Origin: a virus
Direction: 5' to 3' (one strand)
DNA length: 34,534 bases
IMG/VR virus record: IMGVR_UViG_3300028399_000023
Location: 1 to 34,534 of that record
Both the position numbers and the translations under genes were made by a program. The notes beneath the pieces were generated by a model, which worked only from the letters and a program-made list of their open reading frames with translations, made no database searches and was not told the origin of the DNA. Positions 6,802-24,837 of the stretch are shown here, piece after piece. Position 1 is the stretch's first letter. Each line of letters starts with the position of its first letter.

Positions 6802-7059
6802 CTAGTCCTGATTTGTGTAACGAGAAGTTGCTTCTTCTCCTTCATCTTCAATAAAGCGCTGATGTACCTCAATGTATTTCTCGAGGAAGTGCTTGGCTTT
6901 TAACAAATCTTCTAGACCATTCTTGCGCTTCCAGCGAGTAATATATTTAGTGATCTGTCCTTGAAAATAATCCATCTTGTTAGCTGCAGCATAGTCCCAG
7001 TGTTGAATTTCCGCAGTTCTGTAATGATCACCACCCACTTGACGTTCATTAGCTCCCAT
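6802..7059 (-). CDS. DUF3310 family protein
   Basis: 85 residues. RQVGGDHY, IQHWDYAAANKMDYFQG, ITKYITRWKRKNGLEDLLKA and HFLEKYIE match DUF3310, a widespread family of small phage and prophage proteins (sometimes called SaV-like or nucleotide-kinase-like) with unproven biochemistry. The start MGANERQ was chosen because AGGAGG lies 7 bases upstream; earlier in-frame Met codons overlap that site. It follows the HD nucleotidase with an 11-base overlap, and in other phages this family often sits near nucleotide metabolism genes. Confidence 0.85.
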   Translation of the reverse strand: MGANERQVGGDHYRTAEIQHWDYAAANKMDYFQGQITKYITRWKRKNGLEDLLKAKHFLEKYIEVHQRFIEDEGEEATSRYTNQD

Positions 7060-7618
7060 AGACATTCCTCCTGTAACGCTCATCAAGTATATCCAGCCAA
7101 CTGTCCACTACCCGTTTGGCTTCAGAAGACAACGACTCGCTATTTTTTGTAGCATATTCCAGTGCACGTTCTGTGGTGCTGATTAACATTGGGTGTCGAT
7201 TGCCCCGTTCAATTTCTTCAATACAGAACATGCACAGTTCTAAACAATCTGAGATTTTGGCCAATTGTTTGACAATGGGGATGGAGCTCTCCTTGATCTC
7301 TGAGATATGGAAGGGAAGCGCAGCCCTAGACCAGCGTTCCTCCACCATCTTGATCACCCCGCTTAATTCTTCCTCTGACTTCAAATATGCTGGCAAATCT
7401 CCTGTGTACACCTCCTCAATATCATGATAAAGCAGGTATTCCATCACAGAACGACAGATCGCAATCCCCAACTTGGCCTGATTACACAACTCCCGTGCAA
7501 TCACCATTGCATTGTAGGTATGCTCCGCCACGTTATGTTCTCTTATGGTCGGCACAATATGCATCCGCTGCACCAACCCAGCATTTCTGCACAACCAGAT
7601 ATCATCCAGCCCATTCAT
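7049..7618 (-). CDS. HD-domain 5'-deoxynucleotidase, YfbR-like
   Basis: 189 residues. R18, H33 (EHNVAEHTYN), H65-D66 (YHDIEEVYTGD), E69 and D124 (KISDCLEL) line up with the metal and substrate residues of E. coli YfbR, a dNMP 5'-phosphatase. It would convert deoxynucleoside monophosphates to nucleosides. The ATG overlaps the last base of the thymidylate-synthase homologue stop (TAATG), so the two are co-translated; the longer in-frame start was rejected. Phages that replace thymine with hmdU commonly encode a dTMP-degrading enzyme, so I infer it clears dTMP so that hmdUTP is used instead. The substrate is not proven. Confidence 0.75.
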   Translation of the reverse strand: MNGLDDIWLCRNAGLVQRMHIVPTIREHNVAEHTYNAMVIARELCNQAKLGIAICRSVMEYLLYHDIEEVYTGDLPAYLKSEEELSGVIKMVEERWSRAALPFHISEIKESSIPIVKQLAKISDCLELCMFCIEEIERGNRHPMLISTTERALEYATKNSESLSSEAKRVVDSWLDILDERYRRNVYGS

Positions 7619-8601
7619 TATTCTCTCTCCTTCAGCCACTGAATTGCGGCGGCTCTCCAATCTTCTGCTGAGATCGCCTCCACCACCTCTAGTCCAGACC
7701 TAGTCAGCTTATGTATCGCCCAAGCATTAAACATTGGCACTGCGACATTCCTGAACCAGTTAGTCCGGAATTCAATTGGATCAACTACCTCAGTAAATTG
7801 AGTGAGGAGCATGAATGTTGTTAAATCTAGCCACCAGCAATTCATCTCCTCTTCGGTTTCAGCCAAGGCCAAGGGAGAAACCTCATACTTGTACGGATTG
7901 AAGTCACTATATGGCAGCTTGCGCAACCGCTCCCACTGGGGGTTGTTGGGGTACACATGGAAAGAGTCAGACATCTGCCGATACACCCCCACGTGAGCAC
8001 CAATGGAACGTGCGATAGCCTCCTGTAACATCGAGAACTGGACCACGTTAGCACCATAAGCACCCCAGATTACATCATTGCTACGATTGCACACCGTCAT
8101 GTCCAGCTCACGTCCACGCCGCAACTTAAAAAACACTGTGGTGTTGCAGGGCAGATCCTTGCTGTCGACATTCAAATCCAGAGCGGGATCCCAGATACCA
8201 ATCACCGCCCTTCTAGTGTCCGGCTCTCTCTTCAACAAATTGATTGTTTCCCGAATCTGGTCTAGCCCGAACGAACTGCGGATCCTCTTCCCATATGCCC
8301 CGTGAAAGGTCTCTCCATCATCAGAATATTCAGCCATGCGTTTGTTAAACCGCGCCAACCACGTTACATCATAGCGGCCAGCGAGAATCCACAGCGCCTC
8401 CATCAAGTGGAAGAAGGGATTAGCTCCACGCTCTGGAATCAAACACACCCGCTCCATGGGGCGGCGGTATATGGTTGTGACTGGCTCATCGAGCTCAATA
8501 TAAGGCTCTCCTCTAGAGACCCTGTGCACCCCACATTCATCAATCAAACGCAATGCAATGGGATAGGCTTCATTCACATTATCAACTGCTATGGTTTTCA
8601 T
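7618..8601 (-). CDS. Thymidylate-synthase family, probable dUMP hydroxymethylase
   Basis: 327 residues. The fold signature is complete: GANPFFHLMEALWILAG (E68), HGAYGKRIR (Y103), DTRRAVIGIWDP, the nucleophile in LPCNTTV (C152), R173 and D176 in NRSNDVIWG, N185, and DSFHVY (H215, Y217). N185 corresponds to the Asn that selects uracil, where dCMP hydroxymethylases have Asp. The conserved Trp of true synthases (before GPxYGxxWR) is replaced by an AEYSDDG segment, and the usual PCH is PCN. Together with its neighbours this favours hydroxymethylation of dUMP with methylene-THF, without the reduction to a methyl group. GGAGGG precedes the ATG. Confidence 0.8.
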   Translation of the reverse strand: MKTIAVDNVNEAYPIALRLIDECGVHRVSRGEPYIELDEPVTTIYRRPMERVCLIPERGANPFFHLMEALWILAGRYDVTWLARFNKRMAEYSDDGETFHGAYGKRIRSSFGLDQIRETINLLKREPDTRRAVIGIWDPALDLNVDSKDLPCNTTVFFKLRRGRELDMTVCNRSNDVIWGAYGANVVQFSMLQEAIARSIGAHVGVYRQMSDSFHVYPNNPQWERLRKLPYSDFNPYKYEVSPLALAETEEEMNCWWLDLTTFMLLTQFTEVVDPIEFRTNWFRNVAVPMFNAWAIHKLTRSGLEVVEAISAEDWRAAAIQWLKERE

Positions 8602-9478
8602 TGAACACCCTCCAGCACCAGTATTTGCTTTTTACAACCCCTTCTCCCAGCTTCAGCCTCATGTACTTGTCAAACTCACACAAGCTGTGTTCTACATCTC
8701 GCATCTCAAACTTCACGCCCTCAAACATCTTCAACCTTCCAAGCCTCTTTTGTATAATGAGCAGCAGCTTTCTCATCTCCTCTACATAGTCCACCCTTTC
8801 CTTGGAGGGCTTCTGAGCTGAACCAAATAACAGTCTATGGATACCTCGTTTGGCTCCAGGACCGGGATTGGCCCAGGTATAGAGGTCTTCAGCATTGCAG
8901 AGTACTGGGGTGTGGCGCAAATCTGTAGCAATCTCATATCCCACAAATGAGCCCACCATTGTATAGACAGACAGCGCCTCCGTGGTCCACTGCAGCGAAT
9001 TGTGTTGCTGTATTTTCGTCACCAGCTTGGGGGCATCTCGCCACATGGTTTGAATGGTCTGACAAGCCATGGCAATCTTGCCCCCGGTGCCTTCGCTACC
9101 ACTTCCAGTCATCATATAGGCGCCTGTGAATACCTTCTCACCTCGCTGTTGACGGGCAGTGAGCAGTTTTGTTGCTTTAGCTGCGCTCCATTTCCGAAGC
9201 AACCCAGCTTGTTCTAGTTCATAGTAGGTCTCAGCCCAGTTGAACATACGAAAAACCACAATGGTGTGGAATAGCTGTACTGGGTCAGAGATGTCCTTGT
9301 GTACTTGTCGCAACAGCTGTGTTTGTCTGTCGTTCTCTCGAAAGGGATTGGTAAACTTGTATTCTTGCAGTATGGGATCCTTGGTCCAGGGCCAGGGCTT
9401 TCCCTGTTCCTTTTTCAAGAAGATACTGTGGCGCTCCTTGATCCAGTATAGCAATTCCTTCAGTGCTTCTTCTTGCAT
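8582..9478 (-). CDS. Amino acid:DNA transferase-like protein (aGPT-PPlase family) 1
   Basis: 298 residues. The N-terminal segment PWPWTKDPIL, then YKFTNPFRENDRQT at about 29-53, is the hallmark I associate with the alpha-glutamyl/putrescinyl-thymine pyrophosphorylase families described in thymine-hypermodified phages. The rest is largely helical (VVFRMFNWAETY, GAYMMTGSG, LPGPGAKRG-like NPGPGAKRGIHRLL). These proteins displace the activated phosphate on 5-hmdU in DNA with an amino acid or amine. It overlaps the thymidylate-synthase homologue by 20 bases and the GNAT gene by 19. The family call is confident; its amino acid substrate is unknown. Confidence 0.75.
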   Translation of the reverse strand: MQEEALKELLYWIKERHSIFLKKEQGKPWPWTKDPILQEYKFTNPFRENDRQTQLLRQVHKDISDPVQLFHTIVVFRMFNWAETYYELEQAGLLRKWSAAKATKLLTARQQRGEKVFTGAYMMTGSGSEGTGGKIAMACQTIQTMWRDAPKLVTKIQQHNSLQWTTEALSVYTMVGSFVGYEIATDLRHTPVLCNAEDLYTWANPGPGAKRGIHRLLFGSAQKPSKERVDYVEEMRKLLLIIQKRLGRLKMFEGVKFEMRDVEHSLCEFDKYMRLKLGEGVVKSKYWCWRVFNENHSS

Positions 9479-9912
9479 ACTAATTTCTCCCGATTGATTT
9501 CAAAAGTTGTGTATTTATGGCCGCTCTTCCACTCACCTTGACCCACACGTTTGAATCCCAATGAACGATAGAACTTCAACGCTTCCTTGTTTTCATTATC
9601 CACATTCAACGAAATAGCTCCGAATGGGGAAGTTTGCATCGCCCAACAAATTAGTGCGCGTCCTATACCTCGTCCCTTGTATTCAGGAGCAACGACCACA
9701 TCATACACAACAGTCTTTTTCTTACGCACTGCATGGCGCAAACAGATCAAGCCCTTGATCTTCCCCCGCTCTTCAAACTTACCAATCCAGCCACGCTCAT
9801 ACATCTGCGGGCCGGAGTAGATTTGGTTGCTGAATGACTGTGTGTAGCGACTGGTACGTGCAATTCGAACTAGTTCTTGGTGGTCTTGAATGGATGCTGT
9901 TTTAACTGGCAC
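9460..9912 (-). CDS. GNAT-family N-acetyltransferase
   Basis: 150 residues with a GTG start preceded by GGAGGA. The acetyl-CoA loop is VVVAPEYKGRGIGRALI (residues 72-88), followed by the strand and helix SLNVDNENKEALKFYRSLGFKRVG typical of GNAT domains. It sits between the hmdU DNA kinase and a DNA transferase and overlaps both, so its substrate is probably an amino group on modified thymine. In the PaMx11-type pathway a GNAT enzyme acetylates 5-aminomethyl-dU. An unrelated acceptor cannot be excluded. Confidence 0.85.
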   Translation of the reverse strand: MPVKTASIQDHQELVRIARTSRYTQSFSNQIYSGPQMYERGWIGKFEERGKIKGLICLRHAVRKKKTVVYDVVVAPEYKGRGIGRALICWAMQTSPFGAISLNVDNENKEALKFYRSLGFKRVGQGEWKSGHKYTTFEINREKLVCKKKH

Positions 9913-10436
9913 AGTATTTCCTCCACGGCCCGATTACGAGAAACAACAATGTGGTTGGCTCCGTCCTCTTTACACCGTTCCCGCACCCGCTCTAACATCT
10001 TGGCCTTAGCAATTGTGTTTGTTGGGTCTAGTGGACGTGTGTCTCCTCTAGCTTTGCGCCTCTTTTCCACCATGCGAATACAGGTTTCAATGGAGGTCGA
10101 GAGAAACACAAAGAGGTAGGGTTGTTTCATCCTTTTCAGCATCTTGAAGTATGAGCCATAGCAGGAAGAAACAATCAACCCTTCAAACAACACATGACCT
10201 TTCTTGGCATACTTACGAATCCTGCGACGCACCTCTTTTTGAGAGGGGATAGTGTCGCAACCCCCACAAGGAGTCTCGTAACGACCAATGACGTACAAGT
10301 CTCCCCAAGGAGTCTCCACCCTATAATCCTGTACCTTCTTGCCTTGCATGATGGGGGTGGTGGGGAATTTGCGCATTATTTTGCGCACAACAGTGCTCTT
10401 GCCGGAACCGCTTGTACCAGAGATGTTGATAATCAT
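9870..10436 (-). CDS. 5-hydroxymethyl-dU DNA kinase (P-loop)
   Basis: 188 residues from MIINISG; GGAG is 8 bases before this ATG, whereas the in-frame GTG at 10445 overlaps that site. Walker A GTSGSGKST lies at 7-15. GRYETPCGGCDTIPSQ at 51-66 is the signature I associate with the P-loop kinases of thymine-hypermodified phages (5-HMUDK). An LID-like basic segment KRRKARGDTRPLDP follows. The enzyme would phosphorylate the hydroxymethyl group of hmdU in DNA to make a leaving group for the transferases. It overlaps the GNAT gene by 43 bases and is coupled to the flavoprotein gene. Confidence 0.8.
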   Translation of the reverse strand: MIINISGTSGSGKSTVVRKIMRKFPTTPIMQGKKVQDYRVETPWGDLYVIGRYETPCGGCDTIPSQKEVRRRIRKYAKKGHVLFEGLIVSSCYGSYFKMLKRMKQPYLFVFLSTSIETCIRMVEKRRKARGDTRPLDPTNTIAKAKMLERVRERCKEDGANHIVVSRNRAVEEILCQLKQHPFKTTKN

Positions 10437-11251
10437 TCCAAACACTCCAAAAACTGTTGCGCCTGCAGCGCAGCCTGTATAGTGCCGTTCTTGGCACCGC
10501 CAGAGGAGACCCAGGTGCGCTTGTATACCTGTTCAAAATACCCAAGTTGCTTGGGAATGGCTGGGCGATATCCCACAACCCAGTTATACGGCGAAGTCAG
10601 ACTGACATACTTCTTGGCGCGTTCAGTAGACTGTCTCAATCGTTCTTGTTCATCAAAGTTTTTGTGCTGGATGGAGGTGCCGTCTCCAAACCAGATACGC
10701 TTGGGACCGATGTTAAAAGCCACCACCTGTTTATAGGGCGCCCACACAGTAATTGAAGGTTTGACAGTGCCTTTGAAGTACAGCGCAATGCCAGCCAGTG
10801 CCCGCTGCTTTTGCATTGGCACCAGCAACTCACTCCAGATCCCTGCAGCAACTAGCACAAAGCCTTCATACCGCTCTCCGCCCTTGGTTTCCACCCAGCC
10901 ATCTCCAACCGCTACCACCTTGTCCCTGACAATACGATTGCTGGGCAGTAGGATACGTCCCGGGTTCACATGGTACACCTGAGCCTTTTTCAGTCGATTG
11001 ACTGTAAACTCAATAAGGCGTAGTCCATACAATGCATCTAGTAATTCCAGCCCTTGATCGATCTCAGCCCTACTCAGGGCAGACATCCAGCTAGGTTTGA
11101 GAAGACAAGCCGCAGGCTTACTGCCAGCACGAGGCTCGCGGCTGTCTATAACAATCACCTCGAACCCATTGCGCTCACAGAGCTCTGCCGCAATAGACCC
11201 AAATAGCCCAGCGCCTACGATGACCACTGTTCTCGATTTACGACGTGGCAT
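10433..11251 (-). CDS. FAD-dependent glycine-oxidase-like (DAO family) enzyme
   Basis: 272 residues. A Rossmann start VVIVGAGLFGS (GxGxxG at 13-18) with D36 at the end of the second strand binds FAD. Later parts (GRILLPSNRIVRDKV, VLVAAGIWSELL, WFGDGTSIQ, YRPAIPK) follow the D-amino-acid/glycine oxidase layout, though the protein is shorter than ThiO (about 360). In the hypermodification cluster it probably oxidises the glycine adduct on thymine, releasing glyoxylate and leaving 5-aminomethyl-dU. GGAGGA precedes the ATG. It overlaps the kinase by 4 bases and the second transferase by 37. Confidence 0.75.
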   Translation of the reverse strand: MPRRKSRTVVIVGAGLFGSIAAELCERNGFEVIVIDSREPRAGSKPAACLLKPSWMSALSRAEIDQGLELLDALYGLRLIEFTVNRLKKAQVYHVNPGRILLPSNRIVRDKVVAVGDGWVETKGGERYEGFVLVAAGIWSELLVPMQKQRALAGIALYFKGTVKPSITVWAPYKQVVAFNIGPKRIWFGDGTSIQHKNFDEQERLRQSTERAKKYVSLTSPYNWVVGYRPAIPKQLGYFEQVYKRTWVSSGGAKNGTIQAALQAQQFLECLE

Positions 11252-12009
11252 CTCAATTCCTCCGCCAAATCACCCCAACCCTCTAATGCTTCATAGATCT
11301 CACGTGAGTCCTTGAACAGAGGATAGCGGCCTTTGTAGTGAGACTTGTACTTACACAATATGGTCTCCACTTCCATCACCCCCACAGGACGTTTATAGAA
11401 GGGAGGAGCCAGGTAGTTTTTGAATTGTCGTTGTAGCTTGTTCACCACTCGCTGCAGTTCCTTATCTGTAATGGGGGCTCTCCAGTCTCCATGGAGAATC
11501 AATGCAGCACCCTGTCTTGGATCCTTGTAAATCCCCAACGTACAATCACTGTAGTCCACATCCAGCCCAAACACTGAATGAGCCATGTCTGCAATCTTGA
11601 ATGCAATCCAGGGACCGAATCCACTAAATTCCTTCACCCGCTCAGTAATGCCTGAGAAGGTGCAGGGCTCCAACATGTACTCCACCACCTTCTCCGGCGA
11701 ACCAAACTTGTGTAGACAGTCGATGCCATTTGCAGAGGTTCGTCCTCTGAAGTGTCTGCGCTCTGCTCCACGTGGCCAGCGTTGTCTATCTGCCTGCTTC
11801 ATCAATCTGTAGAACTGGCGGGGAGAAGCCTCCGCAATACGGGAGGCCACCCCAACATGATAGAAGCACCAATAGGCTAGACACCAACGCTGGAGACGGG
11901 GAGGATCTCGGTGTAGACCAGACTCGACGAGCATGATATACACCGGATCCAGATCCCCCGTTTCCAACAGGTGCTGCCCAAACTTGCGATAGGACAGCAC
12001 CCCGCTCAT
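11215..12009 (-). CDS. Amino acid:DNA transferase-like protein (aGPT-PPlase2 family) 2
   Basis: 264 residues. LDPVY (20-24), WCLAYWCFYHVGVAS (42-56), WPRGAERRHFRG (78-89) and FSGFGPWIAFKIADMA (128-143) followed by acidic D150 and D152 match the aGPT-PPlase2 group. The FSGFGPWIAFK helix-hairpin-helix recalls DNA glycosylases, consistent with acting on a base in DNA. It is distinct in sequence from the protein at 8582-9478. The ATG overlaps the helicase stop as ATGA. Two different transferases in one cluster could mean a heterodimer, two sequential steps, or two different modifications. Confidence 0.75.
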   Translation of the reverse strand: MSGVLSYRKFGQHLLETGDLDPVYIMLVESGLHRDPPRLQRWCLAYWCFYHVGVASRIAEASPRQFYRLMKQADRQRWPRGAERRHFRGRTSANGIDCLHKFGSPEKVVEYMLEPCTFSGITERVKEFSGFGPWIAFKIADMAHSVFGLDVDYSDCTLGIYKDPRQGAALILHGDWRAPITDKELQRVVNKLQRQFKNYLAPPFYKRPVGVMEVETILCKYKSHYKGRYPLFKDSREIYEALEGWGDLAEELRCHVVNREQWSS

Positions 12010-14252
12010 GCCTTGAACACCCCTCCGCCCAGAGATTGGACCTTGACTCCACTGGCACGCAAGGAGCCAATCATGGACCTGATGTTGGCGGGGGAAGAGT
12101 CAAGACGCTCAGCGGCCTCTTCCACCGAGACCCCGGACGCACGCTTCAGCATTGACAGCAACTGATCCTTCTTGCTGCTGTTGCTGCTTCGTACCGCCGA
12201 CTTCTTGGGAGCCGCTGTCTTCTTCTTTTTGGCTGCGGTCTTCTTGGTCGGTACCTTCTTCTTTGGAGTCGCTGCCTTTTTCTTGGCGGTGCTCTTCTTG
12301 CTTGTGGTGCTGCTCTTTTTGCTTGCAAACTTGCTACTCATTGACTTGCTCTCCTGCTTGGTTTTTGATGACTTCGATTTACGACGAACGGTTTTCTTGG
12401 TACTGCCTGTTGAAGACTCACCACCTCCTGTTGTAGCCCTTGGTTCAAATGAAAGATAATCCGGTAGCTTGCTTGGAATAGGAGCACGCTCTACCACCTT
12501 GCGTGCCAACGGAACCAGCAGTTCAGGATCTTCTGGCTCCAGGGTTTCAGTATTCACTTTCAGAGCTGGCAACAACACTGCTCTGCTCTTCCTGTACAGA
12601 CTAATGAGTTCTCTGTCTGTGGCCTCCTTCCCGATAGTATTCAACAAGAACTTGCGATGGGCATCATGCGACCAGTTAGCAAGGATGTTCAACAACTCTT
12701 CCACACACCCTTGAGGATAGTTGCGCCCCAACACTGGGAGACTGATGCCCTGTTCTTGTGTTATTTCTATGAACTGTTCGATGACATTCATTTTCACCTC
12801 ACTTGTTCCCAGGTAGTGATGTTTCAAATAGTCCAACAATGAAGTCTGTGCCTTGTTCTTGTCCTTCAACAACTTCTCTATCGCAACATCGATAGTATCC
12901 TCCGCAATCAGGTTGAACACAGTGACCGGAGAAGTCTGTCCTTGGCGCCACAACCTCTGAATCAGCTGGTCGTAATCTTCTAGATTGTCTGTCAGACTGT
13001 ACACAATAATTGTTGAGCCAGATTCCTGCAAATTCAGTCCATGAGCAATAGAGCTAATCTGCCCCAACAACACTGGAATCTCCCCGCGATTCCAGCGCTG
13101 TTCTATCTCTCGCCCCTCTTTGGGGGAGACTCCGCCACCGATATATGGGGCTCCTGGAAATGCCTTTCTTAACTTGTCTAGTTCGTGGCGATAGTTGTAG
13201 GCGATGAGGCATGGATTTCCCTGTAACTCCTCCACCAGTTCAATACATTCTTCGACCTTTTCGTCATGAATGTCAATCACATGCCGATTGTTATGTCCTT
13301 CTTGCTGTAACAGCGATTCTATGTTAGTTCCATACACCGCTCCACTAGCAATCTGTCTTAACTTAGCAGTCTTGCTGCCGGCATTAGATGCATTAATCAC
13401 TCCCTGCTCTAGCTCTGCCACGAACTCTTCTTCCACACAGCGATAGACTCTCATCGCCTCTTCTGGCAAAATGATACGTCGTGAAACAATCTCCAGTGGG
13501 GGCAGCTCTAGCAATTCTTTGGGTAGATACAAGGTTTTACGTGCCAAAGCTGCATAGATCTCTTCTTCTTTGCCCGGAATAACCTTCCAGTCGTAACCTT
13601 GATAGCCGGAAGGATAGAAATAGTTCATGCGGAATTCTGTAATGTACTCTCCAAATGTCTCCCCCAGATCAACGAAGTACATCTGCCCAAACAAATCAAG
13701 CAGATTGCGAGGAGAAGGGGTGCCAGTTAGGATGTACCGCCGCTTGAACTTACGCAATATCTTGCGCAGGGCCTTAAATCGTTTAGTGTTGGTATGCTTG
13801 ATCTTGGTGGATTCATCTGCTACTGCAATGTCAAACTTGTTTGCATACCGCGGCTGGCGCATCTTACGCTCAAGCCACTGCAACCCATCATAGTTAATCA
13901 GGTACAAGTCTGCTTCTTCATCTATACGTTTGTCTTTATTAGGGCCATGCAGAATGACCACCTTCAATGGCAGCCCCCACTTCTCAACCTCCCCCGGCCA
14001 GACAGAATAGCAGATGCGCATCTTTGCCATCACCAGCATATTGCGCACCAACCCTTGCGCCTTCATTTTCATGAAAGCGTCAAGGACCATTAAAGTCTTG
14101 CCCAGGCCTGGTGCTGCGATCAATCCCCCACACTCATTCTGGATCAAGTATTTGACCGCTGGCTTCTGATATTTCTTTAGTTTGTACTTTGCGGCACTCT
14201 TCTTCAACCGCCTCCCAGGCTTCTTCGACCGTGCGGCAGACGTAAACGGCAT
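12006..14252 (-). CDS. SNF2-type helicase/ATPase with histone-like tail
   Basis: 748 residues. Motif I GLGKT (49-53), a DESTK box (146-150) as motif II, LTGTPSPRNLLDLFGQ as motif III and QLIQRLWRQGQ as motif VI mark a SWI2/SNF2-like superfamily 2 ATPase of the phage type. Residues about 618-693 are a Lys/Ser/Thr/Ala-rich linker (AKKKAATPKKK-type repeats) like histone H1 tails. The last 55 residues form a winged-helix-like domain (VSVEEAAERLDSSPANIRSMIGSLR). It likely remodels or unwinds DNA at replication or recombination. The start overlaps the VRR-NUC gene by 119 bases; GGGAG supports it, but a shorter start cannot be excluded. Confidence 0.85.
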   Translation of the reverse strand: MPFTSAARSKKPGRRLKKSAAKYKLKKYQKPAVKYLIQNECGGLIAAPGLGKTLMVLDAFMKMKAQGLVRNMLVMAKMRICYSVWPGEVEKWGLPLKVVILHGPNKDKRIDEEADLYLINYDGLQWLERKMRQPRYANKFDIAVADESTKIKHTNTKRFKALRKILRKFKRRYILTGTPSPRNLLDLFGQMYFVDLGETFGEYITEFRMNYFYPSGYQGYDWKVIPGKEEEIYAALARKTLYLPKELLELPPLEIVSRRIILPEEAMRVYRCVEEEFVAELEQGVINASNAGSKTAKLRQIASGAVYGTNIESLLQQEGHNNRHVIDIHDEKVEECIELVEELQGNPCLIAYNYRHELDKLRKAFPGAPYIGGGVSPKEGREIEQRWNRGEIPVLLGQISSIAHGLNLQESGSTIIVYSLTDNLEDYDQLIQRLWRQGQTSPVTVFNLIAEDTIDVAIEKLLKDKNKAQTSLLDYLKHHYLGTSEVKMNVIEQFIEITQEQGISLPVLGRNYPQGCVEELLNILANWSHDAHRKFLLNTIGKEATDRELISLYRKSRAVLLPALKVNTETLEPEDPELLVPLARKVVERAPIPSKLPDYLSFEPRATTGGGESSTGSTKKTVRRKSKSSKTKQESKSMSSKFASKKSSTTSKKSTAKKKAATPKKKVPTKKTAAKKKKTAAPKKSAVRSSNSSKKDQLLSMLKRASGVSVEEAAERLDSSPANIRSMIGSLRASGVKVQSLGGGVFKA

Positions 14253-17417: not shown

Positions 17418-18239
17418 CTACCGACTGAATTTACTACCCTTCTTGCGAGGCGCAGCCTTCTTCTTGGTGACGATCTTTTTCTTGCGCCCACCCTTGCTGG
17501 AATCTGTCTCGCCCTTGTACAACAGAGGGTCGTAATCCTGGCGCAGATCTTCATGCACCTGCTCTCGCAGCGTCAGTACCTTTTGCAAATGCTCAGGGTT
17601 AGCGATAGGTTCCGCTGCAGCGAACAGCAGCATTTCATAGTCCGCCTCTTCATCAAACCGAATTGTGGAGATGATTCCGTGTGTCGGCCGCTTGAGCACC
17701 TTGCGCACTCCATTGGCAAACTTGTCAAAGTTTCGACAAGAGGTCGGTGGGGTGCGCAGGAATACCACCTCGATGTCTTCCAGCGGATCATCCAGCTGGG
17801 CGGAAGAGATCAGCGCCAGCCGCCGTGCATCTCGGCAGGCCTTGCCACGACCATTCTCCGATGAGCCCCAGGCATTGGCCCAGCAAGAGCCACAGTCCTC
17901 ACTCTGCTTCTTGACCGACACGTCAGAAGGAATTAGATCCTGCGGCTTCACATCCCCAAGTGCCCAGCAGGCTGGAGCTGAGGGGTCATCTGCATTGTAG
18001 GGCACATCAAAGTATGCCTTCTCATTGGTCCAGTCGATGATGACCACCTCTAGCTCCTCGCCCAGATCCGCACCCTGGAACACGAAACTCTTGCCCTTGA
18101 TGGACAAATACTGGCCGCCACCACTTTGGGTCTTCTCTGCTTCCTGCTCAGCCTGCTCCATCAGCTGACGTTCCAGTTCCTGCATAGAGACCATGGATTT
18201 GGAACGAGTGCGACGAACCGCCTTTTTCTTTGCTGCCAT
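17418..18239 (-). CDS. Candidate ssDNA-binding protein with basic tails
   Basis: 273 residues. Basic ends (AAKKKAVRRTRSKS at the N-terminus, GGRKKKIVTKKKAAPRKKGSK at the C-terminus) flank a central domain with YLSIKGKSFVFQGADLG, CGSCWANAWGSSENGRGKACRDARRLAL and a strand-rich following part. The C-x2-C ... GKGxxC-x3-R layout is common in phage proteins encoded beside family A polymerases, and I believe these are T7 gp2.5-like or OB-fold DNA binders. The exact function is inferred from location and composition. The usual acidic tail of ssDNA-binding proteins is absent. A strong terminator follows the gene. Confidence 0.5.
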   Translation of the reverse strand: MAAKKKAVRRTRSKSMVSMQELERQLMEQAEQEAEKTQSGGGQYLSIKGKSFVFQGADLGEELEVVIIDWTNEKAYFDVPYNADDPSAPACWALGDVKPQDLIPSDVSVKKQSEDCGSCWANAWGSSENGRGKACRDARRLALISSAQLDDPLEDIEVVFLRTPPTSCRNFDKFANGVRKVLKRPTHGIISTIRFDEEADYEMLLFAAAEPIANPEHLQKVLTLREQVHEDLRQDYDPLLYKGETDSSKGGRKKKIVTKKKAAPRKKGSKFSR

Positions 18240-22817: not shown

Positions 22818-22846
22818 CTAGAAGCCCCTGCGAGGGGCTCCTCTAG
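22818..22846 (-). terminator. Hairpin over the primase stop codon
   Basis: AGCCCCT/AGGGGCT (22823-22829, 22833-22839) with a 3-base loop is extended by CTAGA/TCTAG (22818-22822, 22842-22846). The outer arm includes the primase-helicase stop codon. No T-run follows on the minus strand, so factor-independent termination is doubtful; it could pause ribosomes or protect mRNA. Confidence 0.4.
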
Positions 22847-24837
22847 TCCTCTCCGCGCCGGTACTTGGGGCGCCGGAGCGCGGCCACCTTGGGGTGGATC
22901 ATGTCCCGCTTGTACTCAGCCGCCCACTGAGCCGGACGCCGCTTCTGCCAGTACTCGATGTTGCGCACCACATACAGCACCTTGGTGCGCCCATCCACGC
23001 TAACGCGCCGACTGACCACCCCGGCCTCATGCAGCACTGTGCCCAGGCTAGTGATCTGCTCGATGTTCTTGTCATAGTGGCGCGCAAAGAGCTCCTTCAG
23101 CTCCTGCATTGAGTAGATGTCCCGCACCAGCGGGATGTTGTCGATATTCAGAATCTCGTCCGGGTACTTGACCAGGGTGTGGGCAAAGTCCTGCTTCTCG
23201 CTGCGCCCCACCTTGATCATCTGCTCCTTGTGTTCATTCATCGGTGCCGGACGGTTGGCGTCGAAGTCAGAACAGTCCACATGATGCAGCAGGTAGTAGT
23301 GAAGATAGGCCGCCCCACCCTCCTTGCGCCAGCGGTCGACCGCCTTGTACACCTCGAACTCCGCCGGTCCACGCACGTTATAGATTGCAAAGCGGCGATC
23401 ATGCTCTTCCAGGTACAGCGCATTGGGGTGGTTGGAGGTCAGCAGATAGTTGATGGTGTCCTGCACTGTGAACTCAGGTACATACTTCTGGTTGATAGTG
23501 ACGGTTTCCTGTGTAATCAGCGATTTCAGGTGGTCCGCCTCCTTGCGTCCACCGAGACCAGTCAGCTCTTCCCCCATGATAAAACTCTTGTTCAGCATCC
23601 AGGTATTGAACTGGCTGTGCAGTTCACGTTCTCCAATCACCTTTCCGTGTTCGCCATAGATGTCCTTCATGATATAGCCCACGAACGACTTCCCAGTTCC
23701 ATGCTGCACTGACCACAACAACACTGCCTGTTTCATTTTGGTTCCAGGATTCTGTATGGGGTAGGCTAGCCACTTCAGGAACCACTCACGGAACCGTTCA
23801 TCCGGAATCATGTGGCGCAGCATGGTTATAAATGGTTTCACCTCTCCTCGCTGTGGTTCCGCCCCCCACCCCTTCCAAGTGTTGACGTATTTTCCTTCTA
23901 CCACCGTGGGCTGCTCTGGGGCATATATGATTCCTTTATACTCCGCTCTTCCCGGCCACTTCAGCCATTCATTGAATGCGCTATATTCACGTGTTCGGTC
24001 CCCGGCGTTCTCAGTAAAAGTCAGGGGTGCGAACAACGTAGAGGCCCAATCCTTACTGACCATTACTCCATTTTCTATATCATAAAAGGTAGGGGGGTTG
24101 GCGAGGACACACAAGCGGCTGTTGATCTCATTCAGAGCAATTCCTCGCAGGGAGGCGGTGACGACCAGCTCTGACAGACTGTTGCCTGCAGCCAGATAGT
24201 CATCCAAGCCCTGCTTCCCGCCATCCTCTGCTGGTGGGATGTTGCCGGTGTAAACCTCTGCACCTAGATTGATCAGTTCACGAGAGAGGGCCAGCATGGC
24301 CTTAATTACATTGCTGTTAGTGACGGTGTCAGAGTCAAAGACAATGAACACCTCTCGATCAGCCCACTCAATCTCATAGAACTCAGGCAGCAAGGAAAGA
24401 GAATGCTTAATCGCACGCCAGCTCCAGACCCCACCCAGTCCAATACAGGGAGTGTCCGCTAGCAGAACTGCGGCGGCGGCCTTCTTCTCGCCTTCTGTGA
24501 TTAGCAGTGAATATTCTGGATCGCGGGCAATTTCTTGCCAGTCCAGAACTGGAGGGAAGTAGAGGTGGGGGCGCTCGCCCTTTGGCTGGACATAGCGCTG
24601 ACCTTTCTTGGCATTACCCTTGGCGAAACTCTTGGGCTCCCCTAACAGGCGGATGCGATAGAAGTCTGTGAGGTTGCCATTGAGGTCGAAGTAGGGGATG
24701 AGGTAGCCGGGACTTTTTCTACTACAACGGGCATAGACGGCGGATTCAGTTAATGGCTTCAGTTTCAGTTCTTGTGCATGTTTCTCAGTCAATCCAGAAC
24801 GGGCAAGATCCTCGAGCATCAACTGTTTTACTGACAT
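22843..24837 (-). CDS. Primase-helicase (DUF3854 Toprim-like plus SF3-like ATPase)
   Basis: 664 residues. The N-terminal half resembles DUF3854: GYLIPYFDLNGNLTDFYRIRL, LLITEGEKKAAAA (E115), FIVFDSD (D168, D170) and a GLDDYLAAG element. The C-terminal half is a DUF5906/SF3-like helicase: WSVQHGTGKSFVG (Walker A at 380-384), IMGEEL as Walker B, then LLTSNHPNALYLEEHDRRFAIYNV with the sensor Asn and arginine finger region. It would prime and unwind DNA at the phage origin. It overlaps the upstream gene by 10 bases. A winged-helix-like end (LGTVLHEAGVVSRRVSVDGR) follows. Confidence 0.85.
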   Translation of the reverse strand: MSVKQLMLEDLARSGLTEKHAQELKLKPLTESAVYARCSRKSPGYLIPYFDLNGNLTDFYRIRLLGEPKSFAKGNAKKGQRYVQPKGERPHLYFPPVLDWQEIARDPEYSLLITEGEKKAAAAVLLADTPCIGLGGVWSWRAIKHSLSLLPEFYEIEWADREVFIVFDSDTVTNSNVIKAMLALSRELINLGAEVYTGNIPPAEDGGKQGLDDYLAAGNSLSELVVTASLRGIALNEINSRLCVLANPPTFYDIENGVMVSKDWASTLFAPLTFTENAGDRTREYSAFNEWLKWPGRAEYKGIIYAPEQPTVVEGKYVNTWKGWGAEPQRGEVKPFITMLRHMIPDERFREWFLKWLAYPIQNPGTKMKQAVLLWSVQHGTGKSFVGYIMKDIYGEHGKVIGERELHSQFNTWMLNKSFIMGEELTGLGGRKEADHLKSLITQETVTINQKYVPEFTVQDTINYLLTSNHPNALYLEEHDRRFAIYNVRGPAEFEVYKAVDRWRKEGGAAYLHYYLLHHVDCSDFDANRPAPMNEHKEQMIKVGRSEKQDFAHTLVKYPDEILNIDNIPLVRDIYSMQELKELFARHYDKNIEQITSLGTVLHEAGVVSRRVSVDGRTKVLYVVRNIEYWQKRRPAQWAAEYKRDMIHPKVAALRRPKYRRGED

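Follow-up and report, generated by a model that had tools for sequence, protein, structure and literature searches.

A divergent PaMx11-type thymidine hypermodification cluster in a viral genome fragment, with 5-acetylaminomethyl-dU as its predicted product

The IMG/VR virus record IMGVR_UViG_3300028399_000023 is a stretch of 34,534 bases, analysed here whole and called the window, which carries on its minus strand a block of seven genes at positions 7049-12009 with successive ends overlapping head to tail. The original prediction, made from the sequence alone, described these overlapping genes as a thymine hypermodification cluster of the kind known from phage PaMx11, and in our view the block very likely encodes a PaMx11-type pathway of thymidine hypermodification, whose predicted product is 5-acetylaminomethyl-2′-deoxyuridine (5-acetylaminomethyl-dU). 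All seven genes are found as it had placed them, and its calls of an HD protein, a thymidylate synthase (TS) homologue, a GNAT enzyme, a P-loop kinase and a DAO-type flavoprotein are borne out by matches to PF12917, PF00303, PF00583, PF18748 and PF01266. The remaining pair, announced as two aGPT-PPlase-type proteins, is correctly named in the older nomenclature. Profile searches place this pair in PF18723 (HEL) and PF18724 (the amino acid:DNA transferase, ADDT), which, with PF18748 for the kinase, are the expected HMUDK and aGPT-PPlase families. In the reading direction the genes are, with the E value of each family match:

11215..12009, minus strand: ADDT, amino acid:DNA transferase, formerly aGPT-Pplase2 (PF18724, 8.8e-23)
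10433..11251, minus strand: flavin-dependent lyase (FDL) with a DAO fold (PF01266 DAO, 6.3e-13)
9870..10436, minus strand: P-loop 5-hydroxymethyl-dU (5-hmdU) DNA kinase (PF18748 HMUDK_HMUD1, 4.3e-9)
9460..9912, minus strand: GNAT N-acetyltransferase (PF00583, 6.5e-13)
8582..9478, minus strand: HEL, formerly aGPT-Pplase1 (PF18723 HMUDK_hel, 3.9e-59)
7618..8601, minus strand: TS homologue of the dUMP 5-hydroxymethylase group (PF00303, 1.4e-20; phrog_5131, 2e-107)
7049..7618, minus strand: HD-domain 5′-nucleotidase-like protein of the YfbR family (PF12917, 1.9e-14)

The seven genes form one operon-like unit. A purine-rich ribosome-binding (Shine-Dalgarno) site lies ahead of each gene, and start codons overlap the preceding stop codons as ATGA and TGATG. 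A better start for the HD protein is the ATG at 7618, which overlaps the stop of the TS homologue (TGATG), and a better start for the kinase is the ATG at 10436, which overlaps the FDL stop as ATGA, in place of the GTG at 10445 of the listed open reading frame (ORF). All seven reading frames are open.

The same seven genes are found in PaMx11 (NC_028770; Abidjanvirus) as gp46-gp52, in one operon-like block beside replication genes as in the window, and recur in one block in many viral contigs, which excludes chance as an explanation. Every gene of the window block has a PaMx11 orthologue, with identities of 24-42%, and the solved structures that match the ADDT and FDL do so at E values of about 1e-45 or better, giving the PaMx11-type assignment strong support. 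The order in PaMx11 is ADDT, lyase, acetyltransferase, kinase, HEL, TS and HD, whereas in the window the kinase and GNAT are swapped; this placing of the kinase before the GNAT is the only local difference between the two schemes, although the phage lineages differ. The cluster is thus real, intact and divergent, and is a distant cousin of the known PaMx11 system rather than a new system.

For two of the enzymes, the nearest solved structures come from PaMx11 itself. The best solved match of the ADDT is PDB 8z2m, ‘Glycinyltransferase’ (4.6e-53), in which the aligned sequence is PaMx11 gp46; a further entry, 8z2n, is titled ‘5-phosphomethyl-2′-deoxyuridine (5-PmdU) glycinyltransferase gp46’. 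The window ADDT is 39% identical to gp46 and keeps 41/43 conserved positions, where a conserved position is one kept in at least 90% of family members (18-93 homologues per family). It is predicted to place glycine on 5-phosphomethyl-dU in DNA. The FDL likewise matches PDB 8z79 and 8z2o, both ‘Flavin-dependent lyase’ (3-4e-45), in which the aligned sequence is PaMx11 gp47; it is 37% identical to gp47, keeps all 24 of its 24 conserved positions, and is predicted to convert glycinyl-thymine into 5-aminomethyl-dU. A flavin-dependent oxidation had been proposed for this step: the flavoenzyme holds, and the reaction is better put as the oxidative removal of the glycine carboxymethyl part by a lyase. 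Using the ADDT tree to identify the donor amino acid was tried and rejected, as lyase partners are mixed over the tree with pyridoxal phosphate (PLP)/radical SAM partners (30 changes).

The kinase contains the motif YETPCGGCDTI, as had been noted, and is 37% identical to PaMx11 gp49, including YET.CGGCDTIPS, with 12/13 conserved positions kept. This protein is labelled ‘terminase small subunit’ in PaMx11 (NC_028770 gp49, L002:5218-5787), in M6 (NC_007809 gp054, L003:4686-5249), in other public records and in phrog_800, an evident misannotation. The GNAT is 41% identical to PaMx11 gp48 over 124 amino acids, keeps 14/15 conserved positions, and is predicted to acetylate the aminomethyl group. 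Among phage records with this GNAT, 15/16 are PaMx11-like FDL clusters.

A survey covered 251 sequences, taken from annotated phages and from viral contigs scanned for HEL, GNAT, ADDT, the lyase and an amidoligase (loci numbered with L). The kinase-before-GNAT order recurs in the uncultivated IMG/VR contigs L008, L022 and L056, with L057 as a variant that has its GNAT after HEL, while in the remaining fourteen GNAT loci the GNAT lies ahead of the kinase. The nearest of these contigs to the window is L022, with identities of 63% for the kinase, 58% for the TS homologue and 55% for the GNAT. The GNAT tree groups the window with L022, L056 and L057 (support 86/91), and the simplest account is therefore that a single GNAT family underwent one rearrangement. 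The position of the gene might hint that the window lineage recruited its GNAT separately; this is unsupported, as the cluster GNATs are one family.

At the start of the pathway, the TS homologue belongs with phrog_5131 rather than with the ordinary thymidylate synthases (2e-107 vs 2.8e-30 for phrog_160), and its best PDB match is the CMP 5-hydroxymethylase 5b6d (5e-25), compared to 7e-12 for a true TS. The catalytic C152 is kept. The uracil-type asparagine of the original prediction is real, being N185, which aligns with an aspartate in 5b6d and is asparagine in 77/77 homologues. With 42% identity to the PaMx11 protein and 55/61 conserved positions, the TS homologue is predicted to be of the dUMP hydroxymethylase type. 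The HD protein, at 24% identity to its PaMx11 counterpart, keeps 13/13 conserved positions, including the HD motif H79 D80.

Taken together, these assignments suggest the following route. The TS homologue would convert dUMP to 5-hydroxymethyl-dUMP, while the HD protein probably clears competing dTMP and so lowers the dTMP pool, and the family A polymerase of the phage would build hmdU into DNA. The P-loop kinase, with HEL as a base-presenting partner, would then phosphorylate the hydroxymethyl group on DNA; phosphorylation of hmdU on DNA ahead of further modification is already established (PMC6449724). The ADDT would swap this phosphate for an N-linked glycine, and the FDL would oxidatively take off the carboxymethyl part of the glycine to leave 5-aminomethyl-dU, a step with a parallel in tRNA, where a carboxymethyl part is cleaved and an aminomethyl group is left (PMC9626948). 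Acetylation of the amine by the GNAT would finally give 5-acetylaminomethyl-dU, with the charge masked. The modification would probably hide the phage DNA from host restriction enzymes.

For PaMx11 itself, the transferase, lyase and acetyltransferase steps (glycine, lyase, acetyl) were reportedly described by Lee and colleagues in 2021 and Wen and colleagues in 2024, and the glycinyltransferase and flavin-dependent lyase roles can also be read from the names of the PDB entries. For the window phage we infer that this chemistry runs as well, which amino acid is donated, what HEL and the HD protein do, and that the DNA is protected against restriction.

From HEL the original prediction had drawn a second transferase and a variation on the scheme. 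HEL matches PF18723 along its whole length, with 200.8 bits vs a curated cut-off of 25, a family that Pfam names after a helical domain of the 5-hmdU DNA kinase. HEL is 33% identical to the PaMx11 protein and keeps 25/26 conserved positions. The AlphaFold model (pLDDT 93) resembles one half of the fusion-like, 637-residue SP10 protein named ‘5-hmdU DNA kinase’. Its best PDB matches, weak at E values of 0.4-0.9, are archaeal 8-oxoguanine DNA glycosylases (3fhf) and the PaMx11 glycinyltransferase 8z2n. Judged from the models, HEL shares a DNA-glycosylase-like fold with the ADDT, and both may flip the base from the helix in the manner of a glycosylase. In the ViI-type phage allotria, a gene of its own encodes each of the kinase, ADDT and HEL, and a kinase domain on its HEL protein was accordingly considered and rejected.

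Were HEL a second, functionally distinct transferase, the phage would make a different or doubly decorated base. The likeness to the ADDT speaks for this reading, as the HEL model matches 8z2n in Foldseek with a probability of 0.77 and a viral ADDT model with a probability of 1.00 (TM 0.56), and deep HEL and ADDT profiles align collinearly in a weak match (P = 1.3e-4 over 134 columns; a comparison from small alignments was uninformative). HEL is also found without the kinase in phages that bear glycosyltransferases, and may have an activity of its own. Yet PaMx11, M6 and allotria have HEL too, as do 63/72 surveyed loci with both kinase and ADDT, and its presence alone cannot signal a variation. 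In phrog_800 it is joined to the kinase, the window kinase matching at positions 34-207 and HEL at 324-472, and a search of HEL against Pfam gives PF18723 only, with no match to the ADDT profile PF18724. We conclude that HEL is a standard component and a probable kinase partner, not a second amino-acid transferase, and regard a base altered by HEL as improbable.

A related, non-identical base could arise in another way, if the GNAT took a different acyl-CoA as its substrate, or if the ADDT attached an amino acid other than glycine for the lyase to cut. The window ADDT and GNAT do sit in deep separate clades, identity to the characterised enzymes is just 35-40%, and the tailoring genes recombine freely among viruses. 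Against this, all conserved positions of the FDL are kept, the GNAT family is confined to FDL loci, and any amino acid trimmed to an aminomethyl group by the lyase would lead to the same core, which makes a different cap unlikely, if somewhat less so than a transferase role for HEL. That the genes are decayed or serve salvage only, leaving virion DNA with ordinary thymine or plain hmdU, is very improbable: the TS, HD and kinase folds are known in nucleotide metabolism too, but the frames are open, conserved catalytic positions are kept, and the gene overlaps are coupled and accompanied by ribosome sites. To our knowledge, ADDT, FDL and HEL have no salvage role.

The PaMx11-type pathway itself must be set against several observations that weigh on the other side. 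In the ADDT tree, the window enzyme lies in a clade with those of L056, L057, L059 and L061, all lyase-bearing, separate from the PaMx11 enzyme, which groups with that of M6. Because the ADDT clades mix partner types, the donor amino acid must be deduced from the accompanying lyase, the clade of the transferase being no guide. Sequence cannot separate a hydroxymethylase from a true TS with certainty (PMC5977210). An hmdUMP kinase did not turn up in the ORFs tested, and the nucleotide supply is thus not demonstrably complete. The window is also just a fragment of 34.5 kb.

Pseudomonas phage M6 (Yuavirus), whose cassette has been described (PMC9476957) and whose base is 5-NedU (PMC6449724), shares with the window the ADDT, kinase, HEL, TS homologue and HD protein in gp51-gp59, but has a PLP enzyme and a radical SAM protein in place of the lyase and GNAT, together with an Nmad-type gene. 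PLP enzyme and/or radical SAM tailoring genes mark the M6- and ViI-type clusters (5-NedU, 5-NeOmdU), and hidden Markov models built from M6 gp52 and gp53 match nothing in the window. The cluster shows that the PaMx11 scheme exists far beyond the Pseudomonas phages of its discovery, with two or more deep lineages that arrange the genes differently, and it is a source of divergent enzymes that could make aminomethyl- and acylaminomethyl-dU in DNA.

Across the survey, two proteins stand out as partners of the lyase. The GNAT occurs in 19/61 lyase loci and in 0/42 kinase loci without a lyase (p = 1.2e-5), which supports the proposed order of the steps. An amidoligase-like protein with a glutamine synthetase/gamma-glutamylcysteine-ligase fold occurs in 22/61 lyase loci, none of which has the GNAT (p = 2.3e-5 for this exclusion). 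Both p-values are indicative only, as the loci are related and the lyase served as bait in collecting many of them. The amidoligase-like protein is PF12224-like in 7/9 members, and its AlphaFold model (pLDDT 84) matches glutamine synthetase, GshAB, GshA and YbdK. The gene often lies between lyase and kinase with a low-molecular-weight phosphatase-like gene (L006, L009-L013, L019, L023, L026, L028, L042, L110 and others). GNAT and amidoligase never share a lyase locus and therefore look like alternative caps; on the simplest reading, they would cap the same aminomethyl group. The amidoligase-like gene is also found within the PLP/radical SAM clusters L174, L158, L103 and L127, where it may cap other amines.

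HEL also reaches beyond the kinase pathway. Among HEL clusters at 60% identity, 20/85 lack a nearby kinase. When kinase and ADDT were sought along the full length of 18 HEL contigs (up to 99 kb), neither was found in 17, where records may be incomplete and absence is not proven, and both were found in the one positive control. TET-associated genes, genes of the beta-glucosyl-HMC-alpha-glucosyltransferase type or radical SAM/SPASM proteins are found in many kinase-less HEL contigs; L172, L175, L178, L191, L199, L225 and their relatives pair HEL with a hydroxymethylase-type TS, without kinase or ADDT, and have TAGT/glucosyltransferase and radical SAM/SPASM neighbours.

The nearest replication backbone to that of the window comes from this group, in the 54 kb IMG/VR contig L172 (polymerase 57%, HEL 55%, TS 49% and SNF2 48% identity), whose full record contains neither kinase nor ADDT; in their place are radical SAM/SPASM and glycosyltransferase-like genes. 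Such a pattern suggests that tailoring genes are exchanged around a core that stays constant, and that HEL has a broader role than its present name conveys; HEL is predicted to be active in both phosphorylation- and glycosylation-based hmdU pathways. A more general model is conceivable and still tentative, in which HEL, by its DNA-glycosylase-like fold, would be a general hmdU-DNA factor and would present the base to any tailoring enzyme encoded by the phage. Around a constant core of SNF2, HEL, TS, HD and polymerase, cassettes would be swapped (kinase/amino-acid/lyase/acetyl in the window, glycosyltransferase/radical SAM in L172), and the aminomethyl group would be capped by GNAT or amidoligase. 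Set side by side, L172:5828-13281 and window:7049-14252 have a common SNF2/HEL/TS/HD backbone and a different tailoring insert, an apparent cassette swap between related phages.

Upstream of the cassette lie an SNF2-type helicase, a PD-(D/E)XK nuclease and the family A DNA polymerase, in this order. The first of these is conserved backbone that flanks the cassette and stands outside the pathway:

12006..14252, minus strand: SNF2-type helicase (PF00176, 5.2e-19; 48% identity to the L172 homologue)

Terminase, portal, head protease and capsid genes lie to the right on the opposite strand and identify the window as part of a tailed phage. Close isolates sought by DNA comparison gave just short matches at 69-83%, and, in a search for a host or prophage source, the only lyase relative in genome contigs was from L131, a Gammaproteobacteria metagenome-assembled genome contig with its own cluster. 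A primase/helicase-like protein (DUF3854 + DUF5906) at window 22843-24837 has few relatives among the fetched loci. Adjoining the polymerase, at window 17418-18239, is a protein of unknown function (phrog_27714) that is kept in L172, L183, L056 and L059.

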